Source: an uncultured Draconibacterium sp.
Lineage (GTDB): Bacteria > Bacteroidota > Bacteroidia > Bacteroidales > Prolixibacteraceae
Assembly (NCBI RefSeq): GCF_963677155.1
Contig: NZ_OY781884.1
Span: forward strand, 3,220,501 to 3,284,500
Length of the DNA stretch: 64,000 nucleotides
Direction: 5' to 3'
The position numbers and the translations under genes were made by a program. Every line of letters begins with the position of its first letter. Position 1 is the stretch's first letter. This document shows, in pieces, positions 49,298 to 50,917 of this stretch. Below the pieces are notes generated by a model, which was not told the DNA's origin, did not search any database, and was given only the letters and a program-made list of their open reading frames with translations.

Positions 49298-49369
<72 letters not shown>

Positions 49370-49408
49370 CAGATGATTTAAAAGATAATAAATTAAAATT
49401 TTGCAATT

Positions 49409-50593
49409 ATGGCTAAAGAACATTTTAACAGGGACAAGGACCATGTGAACATTGGTACTATCGGCCACGTTGACCATGGTAAAACTACCTTAACAGCTGC
49501 TATTACTACAGTTTTAGCAAAAAAAGGCTTTTGTGAAATAAAAGCATTTGATCAGATTGATAATGCTCCTGAGGAGAAAGAAAGGGGTATTACAATTAAC
49601 ACTGCTCACGTTGAGTACGAAACAGCAACTCGTCACTACGCACACGTTGACTGTCCGGGTCACGCCGACTACGTGAAGAACATGGTAACTGGTGCTGCCC
49701 AGATGGACGGTGCTATTATTGTTGTTGCTGCTACTGATGGTCCTATGCCACAGACTCGCGAGCATATTCTTCTTGCACGTCAGGTAAACGTTCCTCGTTT
49801 GGTTGTATTCCTGAATAAAGTGGATATGGTTGACGACGAAGAGTTGTTAGAATTAGTTGAAATGGAAGTTCGTGAATTGTTAGACTTCTACGAATTCGAC
49901 GGAGATAACACTCCTGTTATACAAGGATCTGCTCTTGGTGGATTGAACGGAGAGCCAGAGTGGGAAGAAAAAATTCTTGAGTTGATGCAAGCATGTGATG
50001 ACTGGATTCCACTTCCTCCACGTGATGTTGAAAAACCATTCTTGATGCCTGTTGAGGACGTATTCTCAATTACAGGTCGTGGAACAGTTGCAACTGGTCG
50101 TATCGAAACTGGTATTATTCACACAGGTGATGAAATGCAGTTGATTGGTTTGGGTGCAGAAGGTCGTAAGACTGTTTGTACTGGTGTTGAGATGTTCCGT
50201 AAGATTTTGGACGAAGGTCAGGCTGGTGATAACGTTGGTTTGTTGTTGCGTGGTGTTGACAAGAAAGAAATTAAACGTGGACAAATTTTGGCAAAACCTG
50301 GTTCAATCACTCCTCACAACAAATTTAAAGCTGAGGTTTACGTATTGAAAAAAGAAGAAGGTGGACGTCACACTCCATTCCATAACAAATACCGTCCTCA
50401 ATTCTACTTGCGTACGCTTGACGTAACTGGCGAAATTCACCTGGAAGAAGGTCGCGAAATGGTTATGCCTGGTGATAACGTAACTATTGAAGTAGATTTG
50501 ATTTACCCGGTAGCATTGAACTTAGGTCTTCGCTTCGCAATCCGCGAAGGTGGTCGTACAGTAGGTGCAGGTCAGATAACTGAAATTCTTTAA
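49409..50593 (+). CDS. tuf: Elongation factor Tu
   Basis: A 394-residue GTPase that carries aminoacyl-tRNA to the ribosome. G1 is [15 protein letters not shown]3 is [13 protein letters not shown]4 is NKVDM and G5 is SALGG, followed by two beta domains. Codon use is strongly selected, as expected for the most abundant protein. The start at 49409 follows tRNA-Thr. A terminator-like hairpin stands 24 bp after the stop, and beyond it the tRNA-Trp position of relatives holds only a remnant. Confidence 0.98.
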
Positions 50594-50617: not shown

Positions 50618-50645
50618 TTAATCCCGGGTTACGGCCCGGGATTAA
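50618..50645 (+). terminator. GC-rich hairpin after tuf
   Basis: TTAATCCCGGG at 50618-50628 is perfectly complementary to CCCGGGATTAA at 50635-50645, with a six-base loop. The tail is only TTTC, so it may be an attenuator or a 3'-end stabiliser that lets part of the transcription continue into secE. Confidence 0.65.
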
Positions 50646-50664
50646 TTTCGGTTGAAACTCAATA

Positions 50665-50710
50665 ATGGGAGTGGTTAGATAAACAGTAAGTTCGAACCTT
50701 ACCTTCCGAG
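50665..50710 (+). pseudogene. Remnant of tRNA-Trp reduced to acceptor stem and T arm
   Basis: In the phylum a tRNA-Trp usually lies between tuf and secE. Here only its outer halves remain. ATGGGAG (50665-50671) faces CTTCCGA (50703-50709) with six of seven pairs (two wobble), and GTAAG (50686-50690), TTCGAAC (50691-50697), CTTAC (50698-50702) form a perfect T arm that joins the acceptor without a gap. The next base, G50710, is the tRNA-Trp discriminator. Only 14 bases lie where the D arm, anticodon arm and variable loop should be, so no anticodon exists. It cannot decode. The paired part is the minimal shape that RNase P accepts. Confidence 0.7.
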
Positions 50711-50725
50711 CAAATAAGTTACTAA

Positions 50726-50917
50726 ATGAAACTAAAAGTATATATACAAGAGGCCTATGATGAACTGGTGCATAAAGTTACATGGCCAACTTGGAAAGAG
50801 CTACAAAGTAGCGCCTTGGTAGTAATGATTGCTTCCTTTATAATATCATTAGTTATTTTCGTTATGGATCTGTCTTTCAGAAACATAATGGATTTTATTT
50901 ATGGATTATTTTATTAA
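50726..50917 (+). CDS. secE: Preprotein translocase subunit SecE
   Basis: A 63-residue single-helix membrane protein. The amphipathic start KVYIQEAYDELVHKVTWPTWKELQSSA holds the SecE W-P-T motif, followed by one membrane helix (about residues 30-52). It is part of the SecYEG channel. It starts the secE-nusG-rplKAJL-rpoBC run, 16 bp after the tRNA-Trp remnant. Confidence 0.95.
   Translation: MKLKVYIQEAYDELVHKVTWPTWKELQSSALVVMIASFIISLVIFVMDLSFRNIMDFIYGLFY

Follow-up and report, generated by a model that had tools for sequence, protein, structure and literature searches.

Organization of the tuf-secE spacer

The window, the whole stretch of 64,000 nucleotides that was analysed, is part of a one-contig genome of 5.27 Mb (G000, C1:3220501-3284500) whose best named relatives by secE are Draconibacterium and Maribellus. 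On its forward strand it carries a gene that we take from its sequence to be tuf, flanked on one side by tRNA-Thr(GGT) and on the other by a tRNA-like element of 66 bases (50648-50713). The element lies inside the 132-base spacer between tuf and the presumed secE, and contains an acceptor stem, a D arm and a T arm. The features of the locus, with the basis of each assignment in brackets, are as follows:

49298-49370, forward strand: tRNA-Thr(GGT), 38 bases upstream of tuf (ARAGORN; Rfam RF00005)
49409-50593, forward strand: presumed tuf, elongation factor Tu, 394 aa (open reading frame and translation)
50618-50645, forward strand: terminator-like GC-rich hairpin of 12 pairs with a short T tract, candidate protector of the tuf mRNA 3' end (consensus scan)
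50648-50654, forward strand: acceptor stem 5' strand, TCGGTTG (covariation; swap test)
50657-50672, forward strand: D arm, ACTC (50657-50660) - AATAATGG - GAGT (50669-50672) (covariation; stem count)
50673-50685, forward strand: 13-base stub GGTTAGATAAACA replacing the anticodon arm and variable loop (genus alignment; folding)
50686-50702, forward strand: T arm, GTAAG-TTCGAAC-CTTAC (TTCGA loop count; strand identity)
50703-50709, forward strand: acceptor stem 3' strand, CTTCCGA (covariation; swap test)
50710-50713, forward strand: discriminator G, then CAA (sequence; CCA not encoded)
50726-50917, forward strand: presumed secE, followed by genes that we take to be nusG, rplK, rplA, rplJ, rplL and rpoB (open reading frames; secE was the search anchor)

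No tRNA was called in the spacer by ARAGORN or by Rfam at gathering thresholds, both of which called only tRNA-Gly and tRNA-Thr before tuf. A known Rfam family was rejected because nothing in the spacer reached a gathering score; up to E 10 the spacer gave 11 Rfam matches, all far under gathering scores and none to a tRNA family. A promoter between tuf and secE was also rejected, since neither a sigma-70 consensus nor a Bacteroidetes-type pattern was found there. The hairpin at 50618-50645 passed a consensus scan for intrinsic terminators, defined as a GC-rich hairpin followed by a T run, and the tRNA-like element itself is not such a terminator.

The element is a tRNA lacking only the anticodon arm and the variable loop. 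It has the dimensions of a tRNA fold, with a 7-bp acceptor stem, a 4-bp D stem, a 5-bp T stem and a 7-base TTCRA loop, and two bases separate the acceptor 5' strand, which ends at 50654, from the D arm, which starts at 50657. Five of the seven acceptor pairs form in the window, the other two being U.U mismatches. The anticodon arm with CCA anticodon of a functional tRNA-Trp is absent, and the stub that takes its place is able to form a 3-bp hairpin.

An earlier note on this DNA had described the site as a tRNA-Trp reduced to an acceptor/T-arm minihelix. The T arm, the CTTCCGA that follows it without a gap and the G at 50710 were all located between tuf and secE as it described, and the loss of the anticodon part was confirmed by the 13-base stub and by the lack of a tRNA call. 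Of the D, anticodon and variable arms that it considered missing, the anticodon arm and variable loop are gone and the D arm is kept.

Distribution of the element

secE was found in 29 of 37 genomes of the same genus, the window's own included, and the element was present in all 29 spacers reached in this way. The family (f1) was taken as Prolixibacteraceae, Bacteroidales, and was searched with R2, a covariance model built from 48 elements. Matches at E<=0.001 were obtained in 114 of 140 genomes, at most 110 of which carry the element because G014, G022, G702 and G703 gave only matches of 75-77 bases; these long matches are tRNA-Trp in G014, G022 and G703, and also tRNA-Pro in G703. No R2 match was obtained in 26 of the 140 genomes. 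Completeness falls short of 90% in 9 of the 20 that were listed and reaches it in the other 11; six of the 20 belong to the same genus, and secE was likewise not found in these six.

Outside the genus 35 family regions were fetched, consisting of 33 R2 element matches, a locus that holds a tRNA-Trp (L413) and L389, which was discarded as an element when it proved to be tRNA-Pro. All 33 element matches, from 20 further genera, are anticodon-less and lie behind the end of tuf, a count that describes place and form and not frequency, as the regions had been chosen for being R2 matches. The element was read in 21 of the 23 family genera, the window's genus included. Genus g366 (four genomes) yielded R2 matches of the tRNA type only, or none, and one further genus gave no match at all in the R2 search.

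Several members of the family depart from the common form. L394 has no clear D arm, and in L024, from a complete relative in the same genus (G019), both the T loop (TGCAAGG) and the T stem are damaged, making this locus a natural test of function loss. In the tuf-secE spacers L173, L181 and L183 a duplicated ACGGATAA precedes the element and the T stem is weak; these are among the most worn members. The long stub of L381 (G664:C1:3864975-3865045) makes ARAGORN label the element as tRNA-Lys(TTT), and labels of this type are a possible source of false tRNA annotation. The tRNA finders employed either overlook the element or give it a tRNA label.

Two other tRNA-like loci were observed. L331 (G561:C2:536795-536850, minus strand) has an acceptor stem GTAGAAG/CTTCTAC, a T arm ATGAG-TTCGAAT-CTCAT and no normal anticodon arm; it stands upstream of an open reading frame whose start resembles an RNA ligase in its motif, and neither tuf nor secE was seen in the 455 bases examined. 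L313 (G221:C23:183386-183498, minus strand) is tRNA-Lys(TTT)-like, and a gene is read there by ARAGORN only with a 35-base insertion after position 39.

Secondary structure

The fold was compared with that of the earlier note, in which the acceptor 5' strand was ATGGGAG (50665-50671). This strand forms six of seven pairs with CTTCCGA, two of them wobbles, and leaves A opposite A at the end. The GGGAG within it fits better as the last bases of the D loop together with the first ones of the D-stem 3' strand, and TCGGTTG at 50648-50654 is the better place for the acceptor 5' strand, 17 bases upstream of 50665. The conserved body of the 29 aligned genus spacers begins at the same distance before 50665. 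Nor is an acceptor/T minihelix alone what is found, as the D arm is present and GG occurs in the D loop of 54 of 65 family elements. These 65 comprise 22 elements of the genus and 43 others, 7 of the 29 genus elements that are near or identical to others having been omitted.

In the window element the cloverleaf has an energy of -9.6 kcal/mol and the minihelix one of -5.9 kcal/mol. In the genus alignment (29 sequences, 25 distinct) the cloverleaf pairs 89.2% of cells, and its covariation score and its count of double-changed cells were reached by none of 500 shuffles; two further measures were not extreme, double-changed pairs being equalled in 18 and pair types in 274 of the 500. The minihelix pairs about 96-97.6% of cells in the same alignment, with a covariation score that was reached by 108 of 500 shuffles. 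Within the genus (n=22) a mean of 4.55 of the five minihelix pairs form, compared to 3.68 of the inner five pairs of the cloverleaf. For the 43 other family elements the means are 3.67 and 4.77, the script having placed the D arm wrongly in a few rows, which mainly depresses the minihelix value. Some rows in which the D arm was parsed in another register (e.g. L017-L019, L403 and L406) were left aside when the minihelix was judged.

In the genus the acceptor stem is interrupted by U.U at 6-67 (22 of 25 distinct sequences) and by a mismatch at 5-68 (11 of 25), which is why the five minihelix pairs form more often there. U also faces U at 6-67 in the genome's own tRNA-Trp, showing that a presumably functional tRNA tolerates this mismatch. 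The acceptor pairing of the earlier note was rejected as an explanation on the basis of its lack of covariation, the pair counts in the family and its weaker energy.

The unconstrained minimum-energy fold of the window element (-10.4) keeps the acceptor stem and the D arm, with the bases of the T arm paired otherwise. As a single sequence the element is no more stable than its shuffles (z 0.33), and the eight elements folded gave z values from 0.53 to -1.32, none of them beyond -1.4. A miniature cloverleaf with four arms was the unconstrained minimum-energy structure in 5 of 14 elements evaluated (L010, L012, L142, L387 and L401).

Covariation and conservation

Identical rows were dropped from the genus alignment and from the model-fitted family alignment used for covariation, and one further alignment, which ordinary tRNAs had contaminated, was left out of account. 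In a MAFFT alignment of 48 family elements that was not fitted to the structure, 93.4% of the acceptor and T-stem cells are paired and 8 of the 12 pairs are doubly changed, giving 47 double-changed cells against a shuffle mean of 11.6; neither this count nor the score was reached by any of 500 shuffles. In the model-fitted alignment, also of 48 elements and by its nature biased in favour of the structure, double changes were present in 12 of 19 pairs, including all four pairs of the D stem. Swapping the acceptor 3' strand among 34 distinct combinations lowered the pairing from 6.09 to 5.42 of 7 (0 of 5000 shuffles), and swapping the T-stem strands among 11 combinations lowered it from 4.64 to 4.05 of 5 (3 of 5000). 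A full 4-bp stem occupies the D position in 58 of 64 distinct middles, compared to a mean of 21 and a maximum of 31 after shuffling. Parsimony on a tree of 37 tips, built from tuf, secE, nusG, rplK and rplA, gave 12 compensated double changes (6 in the acceptor, 6 in the D stem), 11 breaks and 11 mends. Single tips account for 11 of the 12 compensated changes, the alignment was fitted to the model and gappy stub pairs were dropped.

Among the 65 family elements the acceptor stem has at least six of seven pairs in 49, the T stem is complete (5/5) in 58 and the T loop starts with TTCGA in 61. The stub, as parsed, is 2-27 bases long. Position 73 is not conserved (A33, C14, G12 and T6), so that the constant G73 of a tRNA-Trp is not kept across the family, though the window has G.

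The mean pairwise identity within the genus was measured with the fourfold sites of nusG (0.71) as a reference. The T-stem strands gave 0.96 and 0.99, bases 1-5 of the T loop 0.92, the D-stem strands 0.89 and 0.87, and the acceptor 3' strand 0.89. The acceptor 5' strand and the stub, both at 0.73, are barely over the fourfold sites. Among the loose parts, the trailer reached 0.57, the D loop 0.54 and the 5' spacer 0.50; T-loop bases 6-7 (59-60) stood at 0.45 and the discriminator at 0.42. The positions relevant to the fold are mostly held, the discriminator, relevant to charging, drifts, and the anticodon is gone. That the folded half is retained under selection, as had been proposed, is borne out by the covariation of the stems and by conservation across genus and family. 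Relatives in which both stems are broken were looked for over the genus and family spacers, and the proposal survived this comparison, in which the stems were found to covary.

Origin of the element

Among 80 named loci found by secE, ARAGORN placed a tRNA-Trp(CCA) upstream of secE in 42 and none in 38. An R1 match was present upstream of secE in all 38, that of L173 being weak (E 0.0016). R1 matches in other families (L195-L200, L204 and L205) were set aside, as they are tRNA-Pro, tRNA-Leu or sites without tuf and secE. A class-wide sample gave secE matches in 333 of 346 genomes. In other families of the class all 39 spacers read hold a tRNA-Trp(CCA), the end of tuf being recognised in 36, and these spacers were picked mainly from genomes without an R2 match beside secE. 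From the 39 spacers and the 42 named loci it follows that an intact tRNA-Trp is most likely ancestral at tuf-secE, as the earlier note had supposed.

On the tree the truncated loci fall into a Prolixibacteraceae clade, joined to L173, L181 and L183 with a support of 0.77, and a separate f82 clade consisting of two genomes (L177 and L201, which are one and the same contig, and L202), with support of 0.71-0.80 round its branch. The separate position of the f82 clade implies two truncations, unless the tree misleads. G221 and G310, of family f82, hold at tuf-secE a tRNA-like sequence that was apparently truncated independently. No tRNA-Trp was found in the f82 drafts, which are 92-97% complete, by DNA and tRNA-family searches in two and a pattern search in three (G221, G310 and G118); tRNA-Ile(GAT) was also absent among the tRNAs read there, and the G310 loci were read in part.

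The window's own genome contains one tRNA-Trp(CCA), at C1:3920513-3920586 and 650 kb from the element, in agreement with the expectation that a working copy would lie elsewhere. A full-length tRNA-Trp copy with 97-100% identity is present in 30 of the 37 genomes of the genus. Where the element was found, a tRNA-Trp lies elsewhere in 27 of the 29 genomes, and the other two (G018 and G028) are fragmented drafts. tRNA-Ser(TGA) lies within 1.5 kb upstream of the tRNA-Trp in 18 of 28 same-genus loci read. The tRNA-Trp at L238 (G015:C240:14928-14999) is only 80% identical to that of the genus and is possibly a replacement.

Since the element is conserved and covarying, the tRNA is intact in other families and a normal tRNA-Trp is present elsewhere, the element is an old tRNA gene that was superseded and lost its decoding half, with the fold then held by selection. 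A split or trans-joined tRNA was rejected, as the partial tRNA match L076 (G000:C1:3341559-3341609; positions 10-63) resembles the 3' end of a tRNA-Asn with its own T arm. The real tRNA-Asn, at C1:3332457, is 9 kb upstream of L076, which is possibly the far end of an integrated element.

Discussion

The structure of the tuf-secE element, its covariation and pattern of conservation, its synteny and the working tRNA-Trp elsewhere are observed directly in the genomes compared. The element is almost certainly a conserved, anticodon-less descendant of tRNA-Trp under selection for its fold. The idea of the earlier note that a tRNA had been turned into a processing signal survives, and is well supported on its structural and evolutionary side. 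The element probably serves as a mark for processing by RNase P and RNase Z that separates the tuf mRNA from the secE mRNA.

On the best explanation, another tRNA-Trp gene took over decoding in the ancestor of the family, after which the old tuf-secE copy was stripped of the anticodon arm and variable loop; selection has since maintained its acceptor stem, D arm and T arm. The cleavage, the enzymes involved and the benefit can be inferred as follows. The element would fold in the nascent tuf-secE transcript and would be cut by RNase P at its 5' end (about 50647/50648), leaving the tuf mRNA with a 3' end just behind the strong GC hairpin. The 3' side (about 50710/50711) would be trimmed by RNase Z or by exonucleases, thereby freeing the secE-nusG-rplK mRNA. 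In this way the tuf message, which is very abundant, and that of secE-rpoB could each have a stability of its own although no promoter is evident between them. The released RNA of about 63 bases would be unable to decode and is probably a by-product. The genome has an RNase Z gene above the cut-off, and an acceptor and T stem are sufficient for bacterial RNase P in vitro (excerpt of PMC11221534).

The GC hairpin adjoining the element could by itself separate tuf from secE. It might be a partial terminator that sets the tuf/secE ratio, the tRNA-like fold being merely a secE 5' leader that protects the 5' end or tunes translation, with no cleavage. The 12-bp hairpin at 50618-50645 is terminator-like and was detected on both strands, giving 2 sites where shuffles give 0.1, and a hairpin of at least 9 pairs stands within 45 bases before the element in 60 of the 65 family elements. 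A leader fold, however, would need neither the TTCGA identity of the T loop nor a T stem that is conserved while the acceptor and D stems covary. A hairpin also precedes an intact tRNA-Trp in four outgroup spacers (L146, L148, L149 and L153; judged by eye), and an intact tRNA needs an RNase P cut to mature. We consider a terminator with a leader an unlikely explanation of the locus.

A second alternative places the function in the released RNA, which would act in trans as a CCA-tailed, non-decoding tRNA-like molecule occupying EF-Tu, a tRNA-modifying enzyme or TrpRS and, because it is made from the tuf transcript, would perhaps feed back on tuf. EF-Tu contacts tRNA at the acceptor and T arm, both of which the element has, and its T loop hardly varies. 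An excerpt of PMC11221534 refers to the use of minihelices for EF-Tu, and tRNA-Other of Bacillus cereus is a non-decoding tRNA that can matter (excerpt of PMC3399842). Against such a role, the discriminator is free to vary and the anticodon is absent, making charging with Trp unlikely; the stub varies in both size and sequence; and the t-elements of plants are CCA-tailed yet uncharged (excerpt of PMC11658184). A function in trans is on these grounds improbable. A bolder reading, which is a long shot, is that a tRNA gene became a lasting, non-decoding RNA signal at least twice, each time at this one operon junction. In its boldest form EF-Tu would sense its own level through the element; the CCA-tailed acceptor/T half at the 3' end of the tuf mRNA would be a ligand of EF-Tu, and release of the tuf message would be coupled to free EF-Tu.

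The acceptor/T minihelix, with GGGAG paired to CTTCC, might be the working fold in this genus in the cloverleaf's stead. Its five pairs are complete in at least 16 of 22 genus elements, with a mean of 4.55 of 5, and about 96% of cells pair in the genus alignment. The pairs are complete in only 8 of the 43 other family elements, covariation is not beyond shuffles, the fold is 3.7 kcal/mol weaker than the cloverleaf in the window's genome, and the conserved outer acceptor pairs and the D stem would stay unexplained, so this fold is very improbable. A decaying, functionless tRNA-Trp pseudogene, to which the missing anticodon arm, the damaged T arm of one relative (L024), the U.U mismatches of the genus acceptor and the acceptor 5' strand identity of 0.73 against 0.71 at fourfold sites might point, was rejected as scarcely credible, being contradicted by retention across the family, by the covariation, strand swaps and compensated changes of the stems, and by a T arm, D stem and acceptor 3' strand far above the flanking spacer and above fourfold sites in identity.

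For a processing mark derived from a tRNA, the closest known kind is the plant mitochondrial t-element, which is tRNA-derived, lies at mRNA ends, is cut by RNase P and RNase Z and is CCA-tailed and uncharged (excerpt of PMC11658184). The tuf-secE element is likewise a non-decoding tRNA homologue at an mRNA end, with tRNA-Trp at the same site in outgroups, and may work like a t-element. Whereas t-elements are organellar, it occupies one fixed operon position in a bacterial chromosome, is family-wide and has lost its anticodon arm, and its cleavage is a prediction. Because of its location in a bacterial chromosome and not in a plant mitochondrial genome, it is not classed as a t-element.

The bacterial gene order tuf-trnW-secE has its tRNA in the same place and is the likely direct ancestor, differing in that its tRNA works and decodes UGG; tufA, secE and nusG are named beside tRNA-Trp genes in a figure legend of PMC13092985. 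tRNA-Other of B. cereus, which is tRNA-like, has a Trp anticodon and plays its part outside translation, resembles the element in being bacterial and in having a role other than decoding. It differs in keeping its anticodon, in adjoining a genomic island and in belonging to a larger regulatory RNA, and its known range covers the B. cereus group together with some other Bacilli (excerpt of PMC3399842). The tRNA-like ends of MALAT1 and NEAT1 (mascRNA; excerpt of PMC12941219) also bring the tRNA-processing machinery to a transcript that is not a tRNA; these are eukaryotic nuclear long RNAs and do not derive from an operon's former tRNA gene. Minimal RNase P substrates share the acceptor and T stems that suffice in vitro (excerpt of PMC11221534) and are laboratory constructs, whereas the natural element also keeps the D arm.

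No prior description of the element was found in searches of PubMed Central. In one large survey of bacterial tRNAs, putative pseudogenes and truncated genes were discarded ahead of the analysis (excerpt of PMC13092985), a step that would hide elements of this kind. As natural substrates with drifting stubs, identity bases and mismatches, these elements allow the requirements of RNase P and RNase Z in cells to be explored. They provide comparative evidence that a tRNA within a bacterial mRNA operon can take on a second job, probably as a cutting mark, which outlives its job in translation. A family that has lost the decoding half and kept the fold shows which half of the tRNA selection sees at tuf-secE.
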